Below are positions 1 to 54,400 of a stretch of DNA of 64,000 bases, in pieces. The notes below the pieces were generated by a model. It saw only the letters and a list, made by a program, of their open reading frames with translations, made no database searches and was not told where the DNA came from. Each line of letters begins with the position of its first letter. Within the stretch, counting starts at the first letter, position 1. A program made the translations under genes and the position numbers. Source of the DNA: Phycisphaeraceae bacterium (lineage in GTDB: Bacteria > Planctomycetota > Phycisphaerae > Phycisphaerales > SM1A02). The stretch covers positions 310,001 to 374,000 of the forward strand of contig JAHBWY010000003.1 of assembly GCA_019636735.1 (NCBI GenBank), in the 5' to 3' direction.

Positions 1-260
1 CTGATCGCACGCAGCATGGCAGCGAGCTCCTGCAATCGACCATCCGTGGGATCGAAGAACTGGCACCGCGGATCGCGGCCATTGCCGATGCAAGCGTCCG
101 CCAGCGCGAAGCGGCGGAAGCCATCTCCCGCCTGCTCGGGACGACGGCGGAGAACGCCACCAATGCCCTCGACTTCTTCGAGTCAGTGGATGGACTCCTC
201 GTTGACTTCCAGCGCCGAGGAAGCGAGATGGCGGCGGCCGCAAGCCGCTTTCGGTGCTGA
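1..260 (+). CDS. Methyl-accepting chemotaxis protein, C-terminal end (partial)
   Basis: A reading frame is open from base 3 to the TGA at 258-260 and gives the last 85 residues of a protein that begins before the window. The segment is helical, rich in Ala, Glu and Arg, and ends in a pattern (AAAASRF) like the tail of a receptor signalling domain. No conserved hairpin tip or membrane segment falls inside the visible part, so the family call rests mainly on position: it is the first gene of a cluster with CheW, CheR, CheW, CheA, CheB and a response regulator. In the Wsp gene order this slot is the receptor WspA. It could instead be another coiled-coil protein, but nothing favours that. Confidence 0.6.
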   Translation, partial: DRTQHGSELLQSTIRGIEELAPRIAAIADASVRQREAAEAISRLLGTTAENATNALDFFESVDGLLVDFQRRGSEMAAAASRFRC

Positions 261-311
261 TGGGATCGGATGCGGTCGATCCCGAGAACGACGACGCCGT
301 ACGATGCCCGC

Positions 312-821
312 ATGGAAGTGCTGATCGTGGTCCTCGCCGGCCGCCGCTACGCACTTCCCTCTGCGCGGGTGGAGGAGATCGTGGCAAGAACGAAGTGCAG
401 CCCGATTCCCGGCGCCCCCGACTTCGTGGTCGGACTTATCGATCATCGCGGCTCGCTGCTTCCGGTCATTGACGGATGCAGGCTGATCCACGGTGAGCCC
501 GCAGCCTCCATCCTCGGCTCGCGGATCATCATTCTCCGTCTGGTGATGCCGACGGGAGGCCAACCTGAAGCGCGGATGTTCGGACTGCTCTGCGATCTTG
601 TCCTCGAGCGCACGACAATCAATGTCGAGACTGGCGCGTGGCGCGCGGGCCGGGTCACTGCGGAGCCTCTGCCGATCAGCGCCGTGGGTCGGGTCAACGG
701 CGAGACCATTCCGCTCATCGATCCCGAGCATCTGCTTCGGTCCACACCCCTTCTTGACGCCCCAGCCGTCGATCGCTCGATCTCCCGGCCCGACGCTCGA
801 GCTCTGGAGCAACAGTCGTGA
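312..821 (+). CDS. CheW-like scaffold protein (WspB position)
   Basis: A CheW-like adaptor that would couple the receptor to the CheA kinase in a cytoplasmic signalling array. The fold shows in the opening strand (VLIVVLAGRRYALP), the following VEEIV helix, the PGAPDFVVGLIDHRG loop and the VIDGCRL strand, all in the usual CheW order. It is 169 residues from ATG 312. An in-frame ATG at 270 would add 14 residues (MRSIPRTTTPYDAR) that do not look like CheW, and neither start has a clear ribosome-binding site. Its TGA overlaps the GTG of the CheR gene (GTGA at 818-821), which indicates translational coupling. It is one of two different CheW genes in the cluster, as in Wsp operons. Confidence 0.78.
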   Translation: MEVLIVVLAGRRYALPSARVEEIVARTKCSPIPGAPDFVVGLIDHRGSLLPVIDGCRLIHGEPAASILGSRIIILRLVMPTGGQPEARMFGLLCDLVLERTTINVETGAWRAGRVTAEPLPISAVGRVNGETIPLIDPEHLLRSTPLLDAPAVDRSISRPDARALEQQS

Positions 822-1909
822 GTAGTGACGACAAGGCTGCCCGTCGATCGAGTGACGAGCGGACGGTGGAGATCCCGGGCGAGACATGGTTCTTTCGCTA
901 CCCCGACTCCTTTGAACATCTGCGGCAGGTGGCGCGTTCGTCGCCGAAGGCTGGCCCGTGGCGCGTGGCGAGCCTCGGCTGCGCTTCCGGTGCCGAGCCA
1001 TGCTCCATCGTTGCGGCCCTCGATGGCATCCGTCCCGTCCGCGTGGTCGCCGTTGACCGATCGAGAGAGTTGCTGGCCATGGCTCGCAGCGGACGCCTGC
1101 GTCCATTTGTGGTGCGCTCCGAACGACCGTCGTGGGCGCCGACAGTCTGGACGATCGACGAAGGCGCGGTGGTGGTTCCGCCATCGATCCTGTCGCAGAT
1201 CGATTTCGTCGAGGCCGACCTGCTCAACCCGCGGCTTGCCGATGACCTCGGCGCATTCGATGTGGTCTTCTGTCGAAACATCCTCATCTACATGAGCCCG
1301 ACGGAGCGGCGGACCCTCGGCCAGCTCATCGCGCGGCTCCTGAAGCCCGGAGGCTGGCTGTATCTCGGCCATGCGGAGCAACCTTCGGCGCTGGAACTTC
1401 CATGGCGCAAGGGCGCGAGCAAGGCGTTCGCCTTTCTTGCCCCTTCAAGCGTCGCCGAGGTGCACGACATCACGACTGCACCGCGCTCGAAGGCGTCGGA
1501 CACTCAGTCGCGGGCGGGTCGGTTGGATCAGCACGCCGGAGGCTCGCGTTCCGCCGCCTCACCACCGCCGCCGTCGACGAAGCCAGCGCGCGCGGCGCCG
1601 CTGGAGTCGAGGGGTGTCAACGAACCCCCTTCGATCGAGCACATTCGCGAAATGGCCGACTCCGGGCAGGTGGTCCCGGCGCTCGAGGCAGCGCGGCGGC
1701 GGCACGATGCTGGAGAACGAAGCGCCGAGTTGCTCGAACTCCTCGGCACGCTCCTTCTCGCCGAAGGCGAAACTGAGGAGGCCGAGCGACACCTGAGAGC
1801 CGCCGTCTATCTTGAACCTGATCGAGCGGAAGCGGCCATGCAACTTGATCTCCTGCGCGAGGGTCGTCTTCGTGGCGTGACCGCGCCGAGTGAGCATCCT
1901 CATGAGTGA
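818..1909 (+). CDS. CheR-type receptor methyltransferase with C-terminal TPR (WspC-like)
   Basis: Expected to methylate receptor glutamates using S-adenosylmethionine. The protein has 363 residues. It starts almost directly with the ETWFFR motif that opens the CheR catalytic domain, then shows the SAM loop (SLGCASGAEPCSI), an acidic residue after the next strand (VAVDRS) and FDVVFCRNILIYM. The small all-helical N-terminal domain normally in front of ETxFFR is absent, and the overlap with the previous gene leaves no room for it. The C-terminal third has a Pro/Ala linker (about 215-255) followed by TPR-like helices (about 260-350), the layout of WspC. GTG start, 4-nt overlap upstream, 8-nt overlap with the next CheW. 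Confidence 0.88.
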   Translation: MSSDDKAARRSSDERTVEIPGETWFFRYPDSFEHLRQVARSSPKAGPWRVASLGCASGAEPCSIVAALDGIRPVRVVAVDRSRELLAMARSGRLRPFVVRSERPSWAPTVWTIDEGAVVVPPSILSQIDFVEADLLNPRLADDLGAFDVVFCRNILIYMSPTERRTLGQLIARLLKPGGWLYLGHAEQPSALELPWRKGASKAFAFLAPSSVAEVHDITTAPRSKASDTQSRAGRLDQHAGGSRSAASPPPPSTKPARAAPLESRGVNEPPSIEHIREMADSGQVVPALEAARRRHDAGERSAELLELLGTLLLAEGETEEAERHLRAAVYLEPDRAEAAMQLDLLREGRLRGVTAPSEHPHE

Positions 1910-2477
1910 GGCCAAGCCATCCCCGCACTCGCTCCCGATCGAGGAGTTGCTCTCGCGCCCGCTCTCTGAGAGCCAGCTTGCGAGTAACACGGCGATCGTC
2001 GCCCGCACGGCTCTCCCGACTCAGGCCGATGGAGAGACGCTGCTCTTCTTCGCAAGGCACGGAGAGCTCTTCGCGCTGCCTGCGTCGAGTGTGGTGCGAG
2101 CGTTCGCACCTCTTCCGATTCACCAGGTTCCTCATCGGCCGGGGCCGATCTTTCGCGGAGTTGCGAGCGATCACGGTGATCTGCGTCTGGTGGCGAGCCT
2201 TGAAGCGGCGCTTGACCTCGGTCCATGGGAGGGCGCGGCGACCGAGACCACCCGACGGATGCTGCTGGTCAGCCACGGCTCGGAGCAGTGGCTCATGGAA
2301 GTCGACGCCGTCCTCGGCATCCATCGCTGTGCGCGGGAGCGATGGTCGCCTCCACCCGCCACCCTTTCGCACGCGCGCGGTGCGGCGACGGTGGCCCTTG
2401 TTCCGCTGGGTTCGCGGCGAGCGGCGCTGCTCGATCCTGCGAAGTTGGTCCACCGCTTCCGGGACGGGATCTCATGA
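1902..2477 (+). CDS. Second CheW-like scaffold protein (WspD position)
   Basis: A 191-residue CheW-domain protein from ATG 1902. The fold is visible in the segment LLFFARHGELFALPASSV, a GPIFRGVASDHGDLRLVASL stretch, and the later strands RMLLVSHGSEQWLMEVDAV and ALLDPAKLV. It has about 45 extra N-terminal residues with no recognised domain. The start is chosen because ATGAGTGA overlaps the CheR stop by 8 nt; an upstream in-frame GTG at 1890 is possible. The gene overlaps the next one by 4 nt (ATGA at 2474-2477). Having CheW genes on both sides of a CheR-TPR gene is the hallmark order of Wsp clusters, where the two proteins play different roles in array assembly. Confidence 0.8.
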   Translation: MSEAKPSPHSLPIEELLSRPLSESQLASNTAIVARTALPTQADGETLLFFARHGELFALPASSVVRAFAPLPIHQVPHRPGPIFRGVASDHGDLRLVASLEAALDLGPWEGAATETTRRMLLVSHGSEQWLMEVDAVLGIHRCARERWSPPPATLSHARGAATVALVPLGSRRAALLDPAKLVHRFRDGIS

Positions 2478-4891
2478 GTGACGATGCTCCGAGCCTCTTC
2501 GAGCTCTTCCGCAGTGAGGTCGAGGAGCACTGCCGCGCCCTCTCCGACGGCCTGCTCTCGATCGAGCGCGACGGACTCTCGAAGGAGCGTGCGGCAGGGC
2601 TGATGCGCGCCGCCCACTCGATCAAGGGCGCCGCACGCGTGATGGGCCTCGACGCCGCAGTCAGCTTCGCGCACGAGGTTGAAGATGTCTTTGACCGCTA
2701 CCGAGCCGGTACGGAGCCGATCCATCGAGGTCGGATCGATCAACTGCTCAGGGCGACCGATCTCCTGGCAGCGCTTGCTGTGGGCAGCGAGATCGATGCA
2801 GCGCAGTGGGGCGAGCGAAATGCCGGTGATCTCAACGCGCTCCTGACCGAACTGGCGGCACCGGCACCGGCGGATGAAGTTCGCCCTTTGGCGAGGAGCG
2901 AAGCGTCCGCTTTGCCGCAGGTGGAGGCCAGCGGAGCGCCGATGGTGACGCCGATCGCGGATCCTTCGGCGCCTCGCGCAGCATCGCCAGCCGGCTCGCC
3001 CGGCCCGCAGGAGACGAACACACCAGCGCCACCTCGCTCCTCCCCGACGACACCAGCCCTTGCGCCGGCCGCGTCGGCGGCACCGGGGGCAGGCGGCGTC
3101 GGCGCGCTCGTGAGCGGAGGCACGGCCACCATTGACGCTGCGGCGCCAAAGGCCGCAGAGAGCGAGAGTCGCGTGGTCCGTGTGGCTGCGGATCACCTCG
3201 ATCGCATGATGCGACTGGCCGGCGAAAGCATGGTCGAAGCGCGTCGAGCGCCGCTCCTTCGCGCGGACTTGGCGCAGTTGAAGGAGCAGATCCAGGAGCT
3301 CCGTCGCACCACGCTTCAGGTTCGGCATGCCACCGAGGATCCGCGCCTCGCGGAGCTCACCGCGAGAGTCGAGGATCTCGAACGGCTGCTCCGTCGGCAC
3401 ACGGCCTCCCTCGACGGTGTCTTCCATCGCGGCGAAGAGGCGGCCACCGCCCTCTATCACGAGGTGCTGGCAAGCCGAATGAGGCCCTTCTCGGAGATCA
3501 CCTCGGGGCATGCGCGACTGGTGCGTGACCTTGCCAGGCAACTCGGCAAGGAGGTCACCCTCGAACTGATCGGTGGATCGACCCCGGTGGATCGGGACAT
3601 TCTCGCGAAGCTCGAGTCACCGGTGACTCACATGCTCCGGAATGCCGTCGATCATGGCATCGAATCTCCGGCCGAGCGCACGGCCTCAGGCAAGGCGATC
3701 CCCGCGCGGATCGAGCTCGAGGCGCGACATCAGGCGAGCCAGTTGATTGTTGAGATTCGCGATGACGGTCGCGGAATCGATCCGGGCGCAGTGCGGCGCC
3801 GCGCGATCGAGCGTGGGCTCATCAGCCCAGACATGTCCGAGTCACTGTCGCGCACCGAGATCCATGACTTCCTCTTCCTTCCCGGCTTCACCACGGCTTC
3901 CACCGTCAGCGATGTCTCAGGCCGAGGCGTGGGGCTCGATGTGGTGCAGCGCATGGTGCAGGCGGCGAGCGGCACGATTTCCGTCCGCAGTGAGCCGGGA
4001 GAAGGGACCGTCTTCACCCTTCGACTGCCGATCACGCTCTCGGTCATCCGGGCGGCGCTCGTCGAGATCGCCGGGGAGCCCTATGCACTGCCGCTTGCGC
4101 GGCTCGATCGAATCGTCCGAGTCTCCGCGGAGCGCCTTCAGCCTGTCGAGGGGCGGATGCAGTTCGAACTCGACGGGCGCTCCATCGGGCTCATTCAGGC
4201 TTCGCGCGTGCTCGATCTTCCCCACACCGAGGTGCCGTCGTCTCACTCGAGCGTCATTCTTCTCGAGGATGGATCGGAGCGCTACGGCCTCATCGTCGAT
4301 CGCTTCCTCGGCGAACAGGATCTTGTCGTGCGCTCGCTCGACCCGCGCCTTGGCCGTGTCCCCCATGTCTCGGCAGCCGCTCACCTCGACGATGGATCCG
4401 TCACGATCATTCTCGATGTGGAAGATCTGCTCGCAAGCGTAAGGCGGGCGCTCGAAGAGGATCGCGGTGATCGGCTCGGCGTCAAGGAGAAGGCATCTCC
4501 GGACATTCGGCGTCGGCGGCGCATTCTCGTGGTCGACGACTCGATCACCGTGCGGGAAGTGGAGCGTCAGCTTCTCCAGCGCCTCGGCTACGAGGTCGAG
4601 ACTGCGGTCGATGGTGCTGACGGATGGAACCTGCTTCGCCGCGGAAGTTTCGATCTGCTCATCACCGATGTCGACATGCCACGCATGAATGGCATCGAGC
4701 TCGTGCGCCTGGCCCGACGCGACCCGCGATTCGCCTCCCTGCCGATCGCCATCGTGAGTTACAAGGATCGCGAGGAGGATCGGCAGGCCGGTCTCGATGC
4801 AGGGGCCAACGCCTATCTCACCAAGGGCTCCTTCCAGGATGATCGCTTCGCCCAGACCGTGGCTCGACTCGCGGGAGCACCGCAGGCATGA
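2474..4891 (+). CDS. Hybrid CheA histidine kinase with C-terminal receiver (WspE-like)
   Basis: The central kinase of the chemosensory array, 805 residues. Domains in order: an HPt domain with the phosphorylated histidine at H48 (AAHSIKGAAR); a long Pro/Ala linker (about 130-230) with no P2 domain; dimerisation helices; an HATPase domain (about 345-515) with N box HMLRNAVDHG, G1 DDGRGID and G2 GRGVGLDVV; a CheW-like regulatory domain (about 520-660); and a receiver with phospho-acceptor D732 in LLITDVDMPRMNG. Lack of P2 plus a fused receiver is the WspE architecture. The kinase should phosphorylate the CheB at 4888 and the response regulator at 5944. It is coupled on both sides by 4-nt ATGA overlaps. 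Confidence 0.95.
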   Translation: MSDDAPSLFELFRSEVEEHCRALSDGLLSIERDGLSKERAAGLMRAAHSIKGAARVMGLDAAVSFAHEVEDVFDRYRAGTEPIHRGRIDQLLRATDLLAALAVGSEIDAAQWGERNAGDLNALLTELAAPAPADEVRPLARSEASALPQVEASGAPMVTPIADPSAPRAASPAGSPGPQETNTPAPPRSSPTTPALAPAASAAPGAGGVGALVSGGTATIDAAAPKAAESESRVVRVAADHLDRMMRLAGESMVEARRAPLLRADLAQLKEQIQELRRTTLQVRHATEDPRLAELTARVEDLERLLRRHTASLDGVFHRGEEAATALYHEVLASRMRPFSEITSGHARLVRDLARQLGKEVTLELIGGSTPVDRDILAKLESPVTHMLRNAVDHGIESPAERTASGKAIPARIELEARHQASQLIVEIRDDGRGIDPGAVRRRAIERGLISPDMSESLSRTEIHDFLFLPGFTTASTVSDVSGRGVGLDVVQRMVQAASGTISVRSEPGEGTVFTLRLPITLSVIRAALVEIAGEPYALPLARLDRIVRVSAERLQPVEGRMQFELDGRSIGLIQASRVLDLPHTEVPSSHSSVILLEDGSERYGLIVDRFLGEQDLVVRSLDPRLGRVPHVSAAAHLDDGSVTIILDVEDLLASVRRALEEDRGDRLGVKEKASPDIRRRRRILVVDDSITVREVERQLLQRLGYEVETAVDGADGWNLLRRGSFDLLITDVDMPRMNGIELVRLARRDPRFASLPIAIVSYKDREEDRQAGLDAGANAYLTKGSFQDDRFAQTVARLAGAPQA

Positions 4892-5937
4892 GAGTGGCGA
4901 TCGTCAATGATCTCGCGCTGGCGACCGAGACGCTGCGGCGCCTGCTCCTGGAACTGCCCGATGTGCGGATCGCGTGGACGGCCATCGACGGTGCCGAGGC
5001 CGTCGAGAAGGCGAAGCGCGATCGCCCAGACCTCATCCTCATGGACATGGTGATGCCGGTGCTCGACGGCGCCGAAGCGACGCGGCGCATCATGAAGGAG
5101 AGCCCCTGCGCGATCGTCGTGGTCACGGCGAGTATCGGAGGCAATGCGGGCCGCGTCTACGAAGCGCTCTCCGCCGGTGCGCTCGATGCGACGGAGACGC
5201 CATCGATTGGCCCGGGCTGGGCCGCAGCCCGCGCGATGCTCGCGAAGAAGATCGAGCAGGTCCGTCGCCTGAAGGGGCCTGACGAGCGGGCACCGACGCG
5301 CGCGCATCCCCAGGCGGCGCCGCCCCGCCCCGACCCGCCGCCTCGCGGCTTCGATTCGGGCGTGCCCATTGCCCTTCTCGGCTCCTCGACCGGTGGACCG
5401 CAGGCACTCGCCGAAGTGATTTCCGACCTTCCACGCGACTTTCCCTTCGCGATCGTCGCCGTGCAGCATCTCGACGCGGCGTTTGTTCCCGGTCTCGTCC
5501 AGTGGCTCGGACGCGAAACGGGCCGCGTGGTCGAAGTCGCGCACAGCGGCAGTATGCCCCGGCCGAGTGTGCTGAGCATCGCCGCGGGGAATGCCCACCT
5601 GCGCCTCGGTCTTCGGGGTCGCTTCGAACACTCGCTCGAACCCGCTGGGAGCGTCCATCGCCCCTCCGTCGATGAACTCTTCCTGAGTGCCGTTGAAAGT
5701 CGAGTCAACCCCTTCGTCGCCGTGCTCCTGACCGGCATGGGACGCGATGGCGCTGACGGTCTGCTCGCGCTCCGTCGCGCCGGCTGGCAGACCATCGCCC
5801 AGGATCGCGCGACGAGCGTCGTCTGGGGCATGCCTGGCGCCGCGGTCCGGATCGAGGCGGCGTCGCTCATCCTTCCCATCCAGGCGATCGGCGCCGAACT
5901 CATGCGCTGCGCCACGAACCGCCGAGAGACCTCCTGA
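4888..5937 (+). CDS. CheB-type receptor methylesterase/response regulator (WspF-like)
   Basis: Removes methyl groups from receptor glutamates when phosphorylated, opposing CheR. The 349 residues hold a receiver (phospho-acceptor D53 in LILMDMVMP), a Pro/Arg-rich linker (about 130-155) and the methylesterase domain with all three catalytic positions: S167 in GSSTGG, the histidine in AVQHLD, and the aspartate in LLTGMGRDGA. The start ATG overlaps the kinase stop (ATGA). In Wsp pathways loss of this gene locks the system on, so its retention suggests a regulated rather than constitutive pathway. No CheD, CheC, CheZ or flagellar gene is near, which fits a non-motility chemosensory system. Confidence 0.95.
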   Translation: MRVAIVNDLALATETLRRLLLELPDVRIAWTAIDGAEAVEKAKRDRPDLILMDMVMPVLDGAEATRRIMKESPCAIVVVTASIGGNAGRVYEALSAGALDATETPSIGPGWAAARAMLAKKIEQVRRLKGPDERAPTRAHPQAAPPRPDPPPRGFDSGVPIALLGSSTGGPQALAEVISDLPRDFPFAIVAVQHLDAAFVPGLVQWLGRETGRVVEVAHSGSMPRPSVLSIAAGNAHLRLGLRGRFEHSLEPAGSVHRPSVDELFLSAVESRVNPFVAVLLTGMGRDGADGLLALRRAGWQTIAQDRATSVVWGMPGAAVRIEAASLILPIQAIGAELMRCATNRRETS

Positions 5938-5943
5938 GGAATC

Positions 5944-7125
5944 ATGCCCGTGCCCAACGAAACCGCACGATGTCGAGTCCTGCTCGTCGACGACCAGCCC
6001 ATCATCGGCGAGGCCGTCCGTCGGATGCTGAGTGCGCAGCCGGACTTCGAGTTCGAGTACTGCCGCGACCCGCATCAGGCGATCGATCGGGCGATCGCCA
6101 TTCGCCCGACGGTCATCCTCCAGGACCTCGTGATGCCCGAGGTCGACGGCCTCGATCTGGTCAAGGCCTATCGCGAGCGGGAGGAGACGCGAGAGATTCC
6201 ACTCGTCGTCCTGAGTTCAAAGGAGGAGGCCGCGACCAAGGCGGATGCCTTCGCTCGCGGCGCCAATGACTATCTCGTGAAGCTCCCCGATGCCCTCGAG
6301 GTCCTCGCGCGCCTGCGCTACCACTCGCGCGGCTACATCGCGCAGCTCGAACGCAACGCCGCCTACAAGGCGCTCGATGAGAGCCGGGCGATGCTCATGG
6401 AGGAGGTTCGCCGCGCGGCGGAGTATGTGCAGAGCCTTCTGCCCGCGCCCCTCGAAGGACCAATCTCCACGCAGTGGCGCTTCATTCCCTCGGAATCTCT
6501 CGGGGGCGATTGCTTCGGCTATCACTGGATCGATGACGAGCGCCTCGCGATCTACCTGCTGGATGTCTGCGGCCATGGCGTCGGGCCCGCCCTGCTGGCC
6601 GTGAGTGCCATGAACATGATTCGCGGCGCTTCGATGCCCGGCGCGACGCCCGAGGATCCGGCGTCAGTGCTGCGAGGGCTGAACGAACTCTTCCCGATGA
6701 CCCGCCACAACGGCATGTTCTTCACGCTCTTCTACGGGGTCTACGAGCGGCCATCGCGCACGCTGCGCTGGTCGAATGCAGGCCATCCACCGGCGCTGGT
6801 GGTCGCGCCCGACGGCGCTGCCCGCCGCCTCGATTCGCAGGGCCTGATGATCGGAGCGGTCGACGAGATGACCTGGTCGGCGGTGGAGACCGTCATCGAA
6901 CCGGGAGCACGGCTGCTGATCTACAGCGATGGCCTCTATGAGCTCCGAATGAGCGATGGCTCCATGTGGAGTCTCGACGACTTCCTCGTTGGCGCCGCCA
7001 CGGCCGAGCACGAGAGCGGCAACGCCCACGCCCTCGACGCGATTCTCGCACGCAGCAGGGCGATTCAGCGCCGCGACGACTTCTCTGACGACGCGAGCCT
7101 GCTCGAAGTCACCTTCCGGACATGA
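5944..7125 (+). CDS. Response regulator with WspR-like receiver and PP2C/SpoIIE phosphatase output
   Basis: The output protein of the cluster, 393 residues. Residues 1-135 form a receiver (VLLVDDQPIIGEAVRR, phospho-acceptor D61 in LQDLVMPEVDG, K in LVKLPDA). From my memory of the family, this receiver and the following helical linker (RYHSRGYIAQLER, AYKALDESRAML) are very close to WspR of Pseudomonas. After the linker, instead of a GGDEF domain, there is a PP2C-type (SpoIIE/RsbU) Ser/Thr phosphatase domain (about 155-390) with metal-binding positions in LGGDCFGY, LLDVCGHGVGPAL and LIYSDGLYE. Such phosphatases usually act on phospho-STAS anti-anti-sigma factors. It starts 6 nt after cheB, behind a TGAGGA sequence that can serve as ribosome-binding site. 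The pathway meaning is inferred. Confidence 0.93.
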   Translation: MPVPNETARCRVLLVDDQPIIGEAVRRMLSAQPDFEFEYCRDPHQAIDRAIAIRPTVILQDLVMPEVDGLDLVKAYREREETREIPLVVLSSKEEAATKADAFARGANDYLVKLPDALEVLARLRYHSRGYIAQLERNAAYKALDESRAMLMEEVRRAAEYVQSLLPAPLEGPISTQWRFIPSESLGGDCFGYHWIDDERLAIYLLDVCGHGVGPALLAVSAMNMIRGASMPGATPEDPASVLRGLNELFPMTRHNGMFFTLFYGVYERPSRTLRWSNAGHPPALVVAPDGAARRLDSQGLMIGAVDEMTWSAVETVIEPGARLLIYSDGLYELRMSDGSMWSLDDFLVGAATAEHESGNAHALDAILARSRAIQRRDDFSDDASLLEVTFRT

Positions 7126-7128
7126 GCC

Positions 7129-8193
7129 GTGCGTTGGCCTGCGATCTCATTGACGCTGCTGACGATCATCGGCTGCGCCTCGCCACGCGCGGTCGAGCGA
7201 CCTCCTGCCTTGCGAGAGACCTTCTCCGAGGTGCACATGGGCTCTCGCGCCCGGATCGTGATCGCCGGGGTCGATCACGCGACCGCGCGCGCCGCCGCCC
7301 GCGCCGCGTTTGACCGCATCGCGTGCCTCGAACGCACCCTTTCGGATTGGATGATCGACAGCGAGGTCGCTCGCGTTGCGCAGGCCGTGGCCGACGAGCC
7401 CGGCGCGATCGAAGTCTCCGAGGATCTTGCGAGGGCACTCTCCTGCGCACTCGTCATGTGGCAGGTGACCGATGGTCGTTTCGACCCAGCGCTCGGGGCC
7501 CTCACCACGCTCTGGCGCAGGGCGAAGCGCGAAGGATCACTTCCCTCCGAGGCCGAGATTGCTCTGGCTCGCCGCGCCACCGGCGCCGATGCGTTGCGCC
7601 TCGAGGGTCGGACGCTGATGATCAATCGCCCCGGCGTCAGCCTCGACTTCGGAGCGATCGGCAAGGGATGGGCCGCCGATGAGGCTCTCATGGTCCTCCG
7701 CGCGCATGGCTGCGGTGCGGCGCTCATCGACTTCGGTGGTGACCTCGTCTCAGGCGATGCGCCTCTCGGTGAATCGGGGTGGCGCGTGCGCATCGGCACC
7801 GCGGGCGATGTCATTCGCCTGCCTCCGGGAAGCGCCGTGGCCACCAGTGGCGACGCCGAGCGCTCGCTCGATGCCGACGGTACGCGACGCTCCCACCTGA
7901 TCGCGCCCGATGTAGGGCTCGGCGTCATCGGAATTCCGGAGATCACGGTGATGGTGGTGCCCCATGACGGCACCGCCGATCACCTCAGCGGCGCATGCGG
8001 TCCCGGCGCGATCGCCGACGCACTCGCGACAGCCTTGGGAACGAGTGATCAAGCGGCTCGTGAGCGGCTGCTTCGACATCGTCCCGAGGTCACCGTGTGG
8101 ATCAACGATGGCCTCGGAACAACGCGGCTCAGCCCTTCGCTCGGCGCGGCGGTCGACCGGGCACCGCGATCGGATCCTGCTCTCGCGCCGTGA
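7129..8193 (+). CDS. apbE: ApbE-like FAD:protein FMN transferase, lipoprotein
   Basis: ApbE enzymes attach FMN covalently to Thr/Ser of flavoproteins such as NqrB/C and RnfG on the outer side of the cytoplasmic membrane. The 354 residues begin with a lipoprotein signal (LTIIGC lipobox, Cys at residue 16). Family motifs present are LDFGAIGKGWAADEAL, LIDFGGDLVSG and AVATSGDAERS. The last usually precedes HIIDP, but here SHLIAP is seen, a divergence that could affect metal or FAD binding. The GTG start is 3 nt after the phosphatase stop, so it may belong to the chemosensory operon, although no flavoprotein target is nearby. The 3' end overlaps the convergent oxidoreductase gene by 65 nt. Confidence 0.85.
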   Translation: MRWPAISLTLLTIIGCASPRAVERPPALRETFSEVHMGSRARIVIAGVDHATARAAARAAFDRIACLERTLSDWMIDSEVARVAQAVADEPGAIEVSEDLARALSCALVMWQVTDGRFDPALGALTTLWRRAKREGSLPSEAEIALARRATGADALRLEGRTLMINRPGVSLDFGAIGKGWAADEALMVLRAHGCGAALIDFGGDLVSGDAPLGESGWRVRIGTAGDVIRLPPGSAVATSGDAERSLDADGTRRSHLIAPDVGLGVIGIPEITVMVVPHDGTADHLSGACGPGAIADALATALGTSDQAARERLLRHRPEVTVWINDGLGTTRLSPSLGAAVDRAPRSDPALAP

Positions 8194-50026: not shown

Positions 50027-50371
50027 ATGGAAACCTACGCCCAGGAAATTGACGGCGACCTGCTGATTCTCTCCGCCGACGGCGGCATCAATCGCGGCAC
50101 CGCCACGCAGCTTGTCGAGAGCGTCGGGAAGCTCGTCGATGCCGGAGTCCGGAAGATCATCATCGACTTCTCGAAGGTGGAGATGATCACTTCGAGCGGA
50201 ATCAGCACGCTCATGCTGCTGAGCCGTTCAATGCGGAATCGCGGCGCCGAGGTGAAGCTCGCCGCGCTCTCGGGCATGGTGTCTCAGGTGCTGCAGCTGG
50301 TTCGACTCGATCGCATCTTCGAGATGTATCCCGATGTGAACCAGGCGCGCCTCGCGTTCCGGCCTTCGTGA
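50027..50371 (+). CDS. STAS-domain anti-sigma factor antagonist
   Basis: A 114-residue single-domain STAS protein of the SpoIIAA/RsbV type. It has EIDGDLLILSADGGINRGTA, then IIIDFSKVEMITSSGISTLMLL. The serine that a partner kinase phosphorylates in this family is S56, in TSSG. Dephosphorylation by a PP2C phosphatase lets such proteins bind an anti-sigma factor. No anti-sigma kinase or sigma factor gene lies beside it, so its partners are elsewhere; the REC-PP2C at 5944-7125 is one candidate. It starts 17 nt after kdsD. Confidence 0.9.
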   Translation: METYAQEIDGDLLILSADGGINRGTATQLVESVGKLVDAGVRKIIIDFSKVEMITSSGISTLMLLSRSMRNRGAEVKLAALSGMVSQVLQLVRLDRIFEMYPDVNQARLAFRPS

Positions 50372-50934: not shown

Positions 50935-51420
50935 TCAGCTGCCGCGTCGCTCGCGCATCAGCGCTTCGATCTTCCGCTTCAGGAGCCGCACCCGAAGCAG
51001 ACTCTTCGTGCGCGTCAGCAGTTCGAGCTTGTTGACCGGCTTCGTCAGGAAGTCATCGCAGCCGCTCTCGACCGCGCGTTCGTAGTCCCCCACTTCGTGC
51101 AGAGCTGTGACCATGATGACCACCACATCGCGCGTGGCCGGATTCTGCTTGATCTTCTGGCAGACTTCGAAGCCGCTCATGCGCGGCATCATCACATCGA
51201 GCAGAACCAGGTCGGGCTGAACCCGATCGATCGCCGCGACCGCCTCGATGCCGTCGTGGGCCGTCTCGATCCGTACCGGGAGCATCTCGAGATACGCCTG
51301 CATGAGCTCGAGATTCTGCTGGTTGTCATCGACCAGCAGGATGCACGCACCATCGATGTCGGGGCCGGCGCCGTCGGCGTCCAGGTCGAGCGAGAGCGAT
51401 TCGGGGCGTTCGGCGGTCAT
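50935..51420 (-). CDS. Single-domain response regulator
   Basis: A 161-residue protein consisting of a short acidic N-terminus (about 1-25) and one receiver domain. The acidic pair is in ILLVDDNQQNLELM, the phospho-acceptor Asp is in PDLVLLDVMMPRMSGFEV, and the Lys is in DDFLTKPVNKLEL. No output domain follows, only a basic helical tail. Such proteins act by protein contact or as phosphate shuttles. The ATG overlaps the stop of the FAD/FeS dehydrogenase gene (ATGA), an odd operon partner. No histidine kinase is near, apart from the CheA at 2474. Confidence 0.92.
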   Translation of the reverse strand: MTAERPESLSLDLDADGAGPDIDGACILLVDDNQQNLELMQAYLEMLPVRIETAHDGIEAVAAIDRVQPDLVLLDVMMPRMSGFEVCQKIKQNPATRDVVVIMVTALHEVGDYERAVESGCDDFLTKPVNKLELLTRTKSLLRVRLLKRKIEALMRERRGS

Positions 51421-54400
51421 GATGGGGATGGTACTTGGTTGGCGAGCGCCCGGGCGCAGAGGTCGATCGGATGGAGCGCCCCCACGCCCATCCCCTCCCG
51501 AAGCTGCTGGCGACAACTCGTGCCGGCAGCGACCACGACGCTTTGTGAATCACCGCACGCGCGCTGTTCCGTCCCGGGTACCTCGCCCCTCGTCGCTGAG
51601 TCCGCAAGCGCGCGGCGCAATGGGGCGAAGAGTGAGATCTCGCCGATGCGCATCGAGAGGTCGAAGCGATGCGCCGAGTACCCGAAGCTGCCGGCCATGC
51701 CGCAGCACCCGCTGTCGAGCACCTCGACCGCACCCGGGAAGAGTCGCTCCAGGAGCGCCGCCGACGACGCACTTCCATGCAGCGCCCGCTGGTGACAGTG
51801 GGTGTGGACCAGTATCCGCTCACCCTTCGGCTCAATCGAGGGGCGTCGCGGATGGTGTTCCCAGGCCCGAGCGAGAAACTCATCAACCAGCATCGTTCTC
51901 GCCGCAATCGCCTTGACACGCTCGGAGTCGAGGCCGAGCTGAAGGTCGGTCCAGTCGTCGCGCATCGCGCTGTCACAACTCGGCTCGAGCGTGAGCAGCG
52001 GGGCCTCGGGATGGCGTTCAAGAGCCGCCTCGAGGTGCAGCGCCGTGACCGTCGAGGTCCGGACGGCCTGATCCAGCAGCCCCAGCGAAATCTGTGGCCG
52101 AGCGCAGCAGCCGGCATCGATGAGTTCCACGCGATATCCGAAGGCTTCGAGAACCTTGACGGCGGCCAGACCGATCTCGGAGTTCTGAAAGCAACTGAAG
52201 CAATCGCCCATGAGAAGGACGACCGGGCCGTCTGTGGGAACGCGCCTGCAGGCATGCCGTCGAAGCGCTCGCGCAAGCGATCGTGAGAAGGTCAACGGTT
52301 CACGGCGGGGATCAAAGCGGAGCATCGAGAAGAGCGCCCGATGCGCCGCGGGGATCGCGGCGATGAGATTTGAGAGCGGCGCGAGTGCCGAGCCTGCACG
52401 GCTCATCATTCGAAGTCGTCCGAGCAGGCGCGCGGCCCAGGGAGCACCCCCACTGCTCCGATAGGCCTGCGCCAGGTACTCCGACTTCAGCTTGGCGATG
52501 TCGACATTCGACGGGCACTCGCTCTTGCACGCCTTGCAGCCGAGACAGAGGTCGAGCGTATCGAGCGTCTCAGGGTCATTCCACGAGGGCGCACCATCGC
52601 CGAATTGCCCGGTGAGGGCCAGTCGAAGCGCATTGCCCCGGCCGCGCGTAGCGTGGCGCTCTTCGAGCGTCGCTCGATAGCTCGGGCACATGGCACCCGG
52701 CGCCATGCGCCGACAGAGTCCGGCGCCATTGCACTGGTCGATCGCATGCCCGAACCCCCCTTCCCGCTCATATCGATAGAAGGTCACACCGTCGCCAAGC
52801 GGCGCGTCGATCACTCGATCGATCGGCTTCACGCGATGATGATCGAGAATGCGGAGCGGTGTCCCCGAATCGACGATGTTGCCGGGATTGAGAAGGCCCT
52901 GCGGGTCGAAGAGGCGCTTCACCTTGCGGAACGCGTCGCAGAGCGCGGGACCGAGCACGCGCTCGAGCAAGGGCGTGCGGACGCGCCCATCTCCATGCTC
53001 ACCCGAGAGGGCCCCGCCGTGCCGCATCACCAGGTCCGCCACCTCTTTCGCGATCGCGACCATCGCCGCCCGGTCGCGCTCGTCGCGCAGGTTGATGAGC
53101 GGGCGAATATGGAGGCAGCCGACGGAAGCGTGAGCCCAATACGCCGCGCGCGTCCCGTGACGCTCCACGATCGCCTTGAACTCGTGAACGAACGCACGCA
53201 GACGGCTCGGATCGACCGCCGTGTCCTCGACGAAAGTGACCGGCTTTCGTTCACCGGGAATCGCATGCAGCAGCGGCTCTCCTGCCTTCCGCAGGTGCCA
53301 CGCGCGGCGCATCGACTCAGCGTCGAGGTACTCCAATCGCGGTGCATCTGGCGCCGCCGAGGCGATGGCCTTGAGCTTCGACTCCACTTCACTTCTCGAG
53401 GCGCCGAAGTGTTCGACATAGAGCACTGCCCCGGGGTCCCGGCCATTCACACGCGGCAGAAGTTCGACCGTCGCCGCATGCTCGCGATTCAGGCGCGCCG
53501 TCTCGATGATGACCTCGTCGATCATCTCAACGGCGGCGGGCCGCTGGGCGAGAATGGCTCCAAGTGCCTCAAGCGCCGCATCGACTGTGGCGAAGGCGAC
53601 CATCGCCAACCCGCGCGTCACGGGGCGATCAACCAGCGAGACCTCGGCGCCGAGGGTCACCGCGAGGGTGCCTTCACTTCCGCAGAGGAGCGTTGCGAGG
53701 TTCACGCGGTCAAAGGTGCCGGGTGGACTCGCGTCGAGCTGGGCAAGCAGCAGGTCGAGGTTGTACCCATCCACATGGCGGCGGATCTTCGGCACTCGAC
53801 GCGCGATCTCCTCCCGGAGGGGGAGCACGATCTCCGCCAGGCGTTCGACCAGGGCGAATTCGCGCTCGTTGGCCATGCAGGAGCCTTCGCGAAACTCATG
53901 GCGTGATCCATCGGCCAGGAGCGCGTCGATCGCGACGACATGCTCCACTGTCCGACCATGGAGAATGGAGTACGCGCCCGCCGAGTTGTTTCCGATCATG
54001 CCGCCGAGGTTCGCGTGACTCGCGGTCGCCACATCGGGCCCGAACATGAGGCCATGCGGCGCAAGGTGGGCATTCAACTGGTCGAGCACCACACCCGGCT
54101 CCACCCGCGCGCGGCGCTTCTCAACGCTTACCGAGCGAATCGTTCGACAACGCGCGCTGAAGTCGAGGATGACGGCGCGATTGACACTCTGCCCCGCGAG
54201 CGCCGTGCCTGCGCCGCGAGGCAGAATGGGCAGTCCCGCCTCCGCGCAGGTGCGCACCACGGCAGGCGCCTGCTCGACCGAGTCAAGGATCACCACCGCG
54301 AGCGGTTCGACCTGGTAGATGCTCGCATCGGTGGCGTAGAGCATCCGCGTGTGACGATCGGTGCGGACATCGGTGATCCCCAACTCACGCAGCGCGCGGA

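Follow-up and report, generated by a model that had tools for sequence, protein, structure and literature searches.

The textbook case of a chemosensory array acting on cyclic-di-GMP is the Wsp system. In Pseudomonas and other Proteobacteria its operon (WspABCDEFR) ends in a regulator with a GGDEF output, and in two reference receptors the sensor is a four-helix bundle. The operon described here opens a 64,000-nucleotide stretch of a Phycisphaeraceae bacterium (the window: contig JAHBWY010000003.1 of assembly GCA_019636735.1, positions 310,001 to 374,000, forward strand). It shares with Wsp the gene order, the kinship of CheA, CheB and CheR, and the receiver and stalk of the last gene product, but that product carries a SpoIIE/PP2C phosphatase in place of GGDEF, and the receptor a Cache-like sensor. 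We consider it rather probable that this is a Wsp-type operon with a phosphatase output, in which phosphotransfer from CheA to the receiver would pair the stalks and turn on the phosphatase, likely against a STAS protein.

Other described systems come close in single respects. RsbU/RsbP-type phosphatases and RssB of P. aeruginosa share the sensor-linker-PP2C layout, RssB being the top fold match of the host regulator; HsbR of P. aeruginosa presumably belongs beside them. The RsbU-type domain with its acidic motifs is present in the host regulator, while the STAS and RsbW genes that RsbU-type phosphatases have beside them are absent from the host operon and present in three relatives (L092, L098 and L153). 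In the parts of the descriptions available, neither the RsbU/RsbP-type phosphatases nor RssB are fed by a chemosensory array, and the RssB receiver is not of the WspR type. Clusters of the ACF class share a CheR-TPR (tetratricopeptide repeat) protein and a multidomain regulator with the host operon, and REC-protein phosphatase (family 2C) regulators were listed in such clusters already in 2012 (PMC3447774); the main text of that paper, in the portion available, contains no SpoIIE, PP2C or planctomyc-, and no idea of partner switching was found in it. Che1 of Shewanella, of the F7 class, encodes the CrsR/CrsA partner switch (PMC9855816), and an anti-sigma antagonist is encoded together with a serine phosphatase in early (stage-1) F7 clusters (PMC7184735); judging from the available passages of these papers, however, Che1/F7 has CheY, CheD, a separate regulator and another gene order, whereas the host operon is without CheY or CheD genes. 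Finally, CheA1 of Borrelia is a chemosensory-like kinase that affects RpoS, but it acts through RpoS stability and the accessible text describes no phosphatase regulator (PMC10703414).

The original prediction held that a Wsp-type array feeding partner switching is not a standard described system. This holds for the Wsp-ordered phosphatase operon, which is undescribed in the surveyed literature: among the matches listed, no title or abstract opening of the open-licence literature presents a Wsp-type array with a SpoIIE regulator. It holds less well for the ingredients, given the phosphatase outputs in PMC3447774 and CrsR/CrsA in PMC9855816, each as far as the available part of the source goes. 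New among the literature matches listed are the operon as a system, its spread, its STAS/RsbW linkage and the receiver and stalk that it has in common with WspR.

By order, by the kinship of CheA, CheB and CheR, and by receiver and stalk, the sequences place the operon in the Wsp type (Table 1). Host genes were called from open reading frames and Pfam matches; all operon genes lie on the + strand, and each overlaps its neighbour or lies within 9 bp of it. In Azoarcus KH32C and Mesorhizobium japonicum, annotated operons show the same seven genes in identical succession, their last genes being annotated as a diguanylate cyclase and a PleD-family regulator, respectively, both of which match GGDEF. 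The Wsp order first proposed is thus identical to that of reference Wsp operons, with the receptor gene completed outside the window. In our numbering, where L stands for loci and G for genomes, G000 is the host genome and L002 the host stretch with the whole receptor gene, which runs over G000:C3:308620-310260 (L002:10620-12260) and encodes 546 aa. In CheA, Pfam finds Hpt, H-kinase_dim (weak at 20.5 bits, the cut-off being 23), HATPase_c, CheW and Response_reg domains.

Table 1. Features of the operon and of one further locus in the window (positions in the window)
Feature	Position	Strand	Remarks
Chemoreceptor (MCP), C-terminal end	1..260	+	cut by window edge
CheW (WspB position)	270..821	+	Pfam CheW 81.9 bits
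CheR methyltransferase with TPR-like C-terminal region (WspC position)	818..1909	+	Pfam CheR 93 bits; alignment to six Wsp CheRs
CheW (WspD position)	1890..2477	+	Pfam CheW 51 bits
CheA-REC hybrid kinase (WspE position)	2474..4891	+	P1 His48, receiver Asp732
CheB methylesterase (WspF position)	4888..5937	+	Pfam 168 bits
Output regulator REC-SpoIIE	5944..7125	+	Pfam receiver 66 bits, SpoIIE 148 bits
ApbE (FAD:protein FMN transferase)	7129..8193	+	3 bp after regulator
Stand-alone STAS protein	50051..50371	+	candidate target only

The trees that the original prediction had called for place the host CheA with Wsp. In a tree of the P3-P5 region (53 rows), a single clade, set apart from seven outgroups (support 100/99), takes in the 40 SpoIIE-linked CheAs and the six of Wsp, and a tree of CheA, CheB and CheR together (41 rows) gives the same Wsp grouping (100/100). 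L042, a CheA fragment, was left out of both; the first tree also leaves out the long-branch outgroups L118 and L119, and the second six near-duplicates, four loci without a detected CheB and the outgroups L078, L118, L119 and L120. No grouping with flagellar or unrelated systems was seen, the host CheA separating from all of the seven to nine CheAs used for comparison, to which no published class was assigned. It is 44.5-49% identical to the CheAs of the 20 best plasmid records, the next rows reaching at most 36% among the matches listed; the same 20 records hold the 20 best WspR-type receivers, and in three Burkholderia plasmid records the CheA and receiver matches lie far apart. Nor, as far as tested, does the genome offer a GGDEF regulator as the true partner of the array: the receiver of its REC-GGDEF protein at C1:23874-24725 scores 39 bits against the WspR type, compared with 163-178 bits for six WspRs. 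Among the candidates scored in G000 (9 of 20), the operon receiver is the one listed as WspR-type at E 1e-20, and the nine others tested reach at most 53 bits.

The regulator consists of a WspR-type receiver (residues 10-125, Asp61), a stalk helix (residues 117-164) and the SpoIIE/PP2C domain (residues 174-391) that had been predicted for the last gene and that Pfam confirms. The receiver and the first part of the stalk match WspR at E 1e-50; PDB receivers other than WspR score at most 59 bits, and that of P. aeruginosa RssB (3eq2) only 41 bits, so it is not of the WspR type. Acidic motifs, which we take to be the metal motifs, lie at residues 189, 207, 329 and 382-383. All 80 relatives examined (below) keep Asp61, Ser91 and Lys113 of the receiver and Asp329, Asp382 and Asp383 of the phosphatase; positions 188-189 and 207-211 fall inside the scan patterns GGD[ACS]FGYH and [LI]DVCGHGV, and conservation there, being due to selection, was not counted. 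In a structural model (25 sequences, pLDDT 90) a single helix, 117-164, joins the receiver to the PP2C-type domain. The best fold matches in the PDB are P. aeruginosa RssB, then E. coli-type RssB and WspR; for the phosphatase half, RssB is followed by Rv1364c RsbU, SiaA, SpoIIE and RsbX.

These features suggest how the pathway might work. CheA would phosphorylate the WspR-type receiver, phosphorylation would pair the stalk helices and switch the phosphatase on, and the active enzyme would likely dephosphorylate a STAS anti-anti-sigma protein and change gene expression. Phosphotransfer, activation by dimerisation, the STAS target and the effect on transcription are the parts that we infer. For RsbU, linkers that form a coiled coil are reported to dimerise the phosphatase and switch it on, and phosphatases, kinases and cyclases have been proposed to exchange their sensor domains (both in the available part of PMC12143880).

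To ask how far the arrangement recurs, species genomes were scanned with an alignment of 25 regulators, which gave at least 538 relatives; the best 80 were kept as loci, with at most 10 kb, and often less, fetched on each side. Neighbourhoods with CheA or CheB and a SpoIIE regulator recur: in 49 of the 80, CheA, CheB or the two together lie on the regulator's strand (both in 36, CheA alone in four, CheB alone in nine), and 15 have all six upstream genes. With all six genes kept in 15 and CheA plus CheB in 36 loci (phmmer with the window proteins), conservation at the sequence level excludes a chance grouping. The remaining 31 are orphans, at least four of them cut at the regulator. The titles of che-linked records name eight phyla (Planctomycetota, Thermodesulfobacteriota, Myxococcota, Elusimicrobiota, Chlamydiota, Ignavibacteriota, Lentisphaerota and Pseudomonadota), labels that are not to be fully trusted, most records being metagenome-assembled genomes and the 'Myxococcota' one being titled Deltaproteobacteria. 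The CheAs of L094 (Ignavibacteriae) and L097 (Desulfobulbaceae) are near-identical, and therefore at least one is mislabelled; those of L090, L103 and L106 are near-identical despite different names. Two che-linked records are named isolates, Paludisphaera soli JC670 (L060) and Desulfoferrobacter suflitae DRH4 (L098). A Wsp-kind array, receiver and stalk included, is thus wired to a phosphatase in eight titled phyla, and two isolates make it experimentally testable. An ApbE gene follows the regulator directly in 10 of the 49 che-linked relatives; in the host it lies beyond the region first described (1..7125), continues the same gene run, and has a lipobox-like N-terminus (by eye).

No GGDEF protein was found in the fetched stretches of any of the 80 relatives (phmmer, E 1e-5), a search that picked up every one of the six Wsp references as well as both GGDEF genes of G000 (three control loci). 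Because the 80 had been chosen by SpoIIE, we also searched 392 Planctomycetota genomes with the receiver alone (E 1e-20). At least 20 of them hold 25 WspR-type receivers, a lower bound since only the best nine first-look candidates per genome were scored; the outputs are SpoIIE in 19, GAF-HD in five, a histidine kinase in one and GGDEF in none. CheB lies next door in 18 of the 19 SpoIIE cases, and the histidine kinase case has both CheA and CheB. The five GAF-HD cases have neither within 1.5 kb, and two of their receivers are weak (39-40% identity). In addition, L072 (7546-9108), L082 (8243-9925) and L076 (410-1951) encode a second WspR-type receiver, joined in one protein to a class III adenylate/guanylate cyclase, ahead of the REC-SpoIIE gene; in L072 and L082 the fusion lies inside the che operon (dual output), and L076 is a short contig with no che genes in view. 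One receiver type thus occurs with no fewer than five outputs (GGDEF, PP2C, histidine kinase, class III cyclase and GAF-HD), and those of phosphatase, class III cyclase, histidine kinase and GAF-HD form a natural exchange set for the proposal made in the available part of PMC12143880. GAF-HD proteins with a WspR-type receiver occur elsewhere in same-family genomes at five loci (L143-L147), and GAF-HD genes upstream of a che operon at L038:2467-4266 (no Pfam receiver match), L083:392-2176 and L090:47-1825; they are a possible second output, on cyclic-di-GMP breakdown.

Which output came first is a separate matter. We put forward, tentatively and with somewhat less than even confidence, that the phosphatase operon is the older and wider form of Wsp and that the proteobacterial cyclic-di-GMP system is a derived branch, its output changed behind a fixed receiver-stalk socket that serves class III nucleotide cyclases, histidine kinases and GAF-HD proteins as well. 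Wsp branches off within the phosphatase form in the best trees of CheA, of the concatenated proteins and of the receiver, and bootstrap trees with the phosphatase rows on one side make up 0% (CheA) and 4% (CheA, CheB and CheR) of 200. Proof of this nesting was not reached: the AU test does not reject a single phosphatase clade (p 0.137 for CheA, 0.218 for the three proteins). The receiver tree has few columns, with fifteen rows removed by hand as likely duplicates or short contigs; the tree set was chosen by SpoIIE, and the output-blind sampling covers Planctomycetota.

The weakest step of the proposed pathway is STAS dephosphorylation with release of the partner. Partner switching as the target is nevertheless plausible from the gene neighbourhoods: the STAS target that had been predicted gains support from three relatives in which STAS and RsbW adjoin the regulator, but not from the host operon. 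In L092, with a full che operon, RsbW and STAS follow the regulator in line; in L098 (Desulfoferrobacter suflitae), also with a full che operon, the two are convergent beside it; and in G094 (L153) STAS and RsbW lie in line behind a regulator of the same type that has no che genes nearby. Elsewhere, a 507-aa protein with an RsbW-like domain is convergent beside a che-linked regulator (G277, L157:8094-9614, - strand), and 3.2 kb downstream of another lies a protein of 864 aa that combines a receiver with an RsbW-like domain (L043:8365-10956). The host genome has nine STAS matches, two of them in transporter-like proteins (by eye). STAS is paired with RsbW at two places, C1:342.7 kb and C4:6.7 kb, and there are single STAS proteins besides. 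Of the two strong host RsbWs, that on C4 is nearer to those of L092 and L098 (34-38 vs 21-28 bits); similarity to the L092 and L098 STAS proteins, tried as a way of picking the host target, gave scores too close to call. If the STAS target is true, control of sigma-factor or other partner switches by chemoreceptor arrays may be more widespread than one would expect from the Shewanella example.

Several observations weigh against the STAS pathway as proposed. STAS and RsbW genes are absent from the host operon and from its flanks, and pairs of them adjoin the regulator in only 2 of the 49 che-linked loci (43 of which hold at least 1 kb downstream; the STAS and RsbW HMMs were built partly from the two pairs). 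Co-occurrence of RsbW was rejected as target evidence, RsbW-like genes turning up in each of the 40 genomes tested, of which 20 have the regulator and 20 lack it. The top fold match, P. aeruginosa RssB, has an E. coli namesake that is called a pseudo-phosphatase. FliG with flagellar-looking neighbours (by eye) lies at G000:C6:62000-85000 (L163, L164), which, with no CheW outside the operon, would allow for a motility role. Adaptation may also be weak, to judge from a CheR sequence without its N-terminal domain and with a departing SAM motif.

The alternative that survives best, though we think it unlikely, keeps the array and the active phosphatase and changes the substrate: the enzyme would reverse the marks of Ser/Thr kinases on proteins other than STAS. 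SpoIIE/PP2C enzymes, taken as a class, have several substrates, and 47 of the 49 che-linked loci are without an adjoining STAS/RsbW pair by the HMMs used, six of them holding less than 1 kb downstream. However, STAS and RsbW do adjoin the regulator in three relatives, and the fold matches of the phosphatase half after RssB (Rv1364c RsbU, SiaA, SpoIIE and RsbX) also argue for a STAS substrate.

Less probable still is an array that mainly steers flagellar motility through an unlinked CheY-type protein, the phosphatase being a side branch. Matches over cut-off in the host genome (3.43 Mb in 33 contigs, 97% complete) number three for MCPsignal, five for SpoIIE, nine for STAS, two for GGDEF and 15 for receivers. 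All three CheW domains found in that genome belong to the operon, and the operon kinase is therefore the only chemosensory kinase found in G000; this, together with FliG, would fit such a role, as would short receiver proteins such as those at C3:122944 and at 50935-51516 of the window. On the other side, the operon has no CheY gene, REC-SpoIIE stays beside CheA and CheB genes in records titled as eight phyla, and the host CheA keeps apart from the unlabelled comparison CheAs. A further possibility, to which we give little weight, is that the SpoIIE domain is a pseudo-phosphatase and works as an RssB-like adaptor for a sigma factor. P. aeruginosa RssB is indeed the top match both by fold and in NCBIfam, but the NCBIfam score is 109 against a cut-off of 700, and the acidic motifs are kept in all 80 relatives, the three columns outside the scan patterns included.

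The claim that all key residues are intact held only in part: the tested CheA and regulator residues are kept, but CheR is not complete. Its frame is open only from position 758, and the N-terminal helical domain is therefore truly absent; the domain is kept in six Wsp references and in the same-family loci L029 and L032. In the stretch that we take to be the SAM-binding motif, the host has GAEP where six references have GEEP or GEEA. The TPR part aligns to Wsp CheRs and has a weak NCBIfam match (21 bits), and no Pfam TPR was matched in the host CheR. At the Lys position of the CheB receiver the host reads ALDATETP and Wsp references ALDAVDTP and similar, so that both lack the usual Lys. That the operon is decaying or silent in this genome can be all but dismissed, for while the loss in CheR and its altered SAM motif would fit, all frames are open and tightly coupled and the tested CheA and regulator residues are kept.

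The array probably takes its input from a small molecule, for which the structural model suggests a Cache-like domain of the receptor as the sensor; the surface or envelope signal that had been proposed is unsupported, the sensor model being Cache/CitA-like where two Wsp references carry 4HB_MCP_1. The receptor has a hydrophobic segment, a sensor of ~160 aa, a second hydrophobic segment, HAMP, MCPsignal and a EIEAAKAGESGRGF tip. No Pfam sensor domain matched the sensor, 4HB not even up to E 1. The model (8 sequences; pLDDT 71 overall, 82-93 over most of the sensor) is nearest to the sensors of CitA and of a formate chemoreceptor, weakly so (E about 4e-5 to 5e-4). Among seven receptors of relatives, three (L092, L098, L151) have a Cache, Tll0287 or PDC sensor over cut-off, L155 lies at the dCache_1 cut-off, L152 and L083 are weak and L156 has none. 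The operon kinase may also receive input from two further receptors encoded in the genome.

The sensor domain of the window receptor is also found on the HAMP-Guanylate_cyc proteins P0127 and P0128 (37% and 32% identity). Orphan REC-SpoIIE genes without che genes occur in L040, L054, L067 and other planctomycete loci, with MpsC-type (PF10057) genes upstream in L040 and L067 and an EF-Tu gene downstream in L054. Directly before the receptor gene of the host, at L002:7989-10447, lie genes for 6-phosphogluconate dehydrogenase and glucose-6-phosphate dehydrogenase (by eye).

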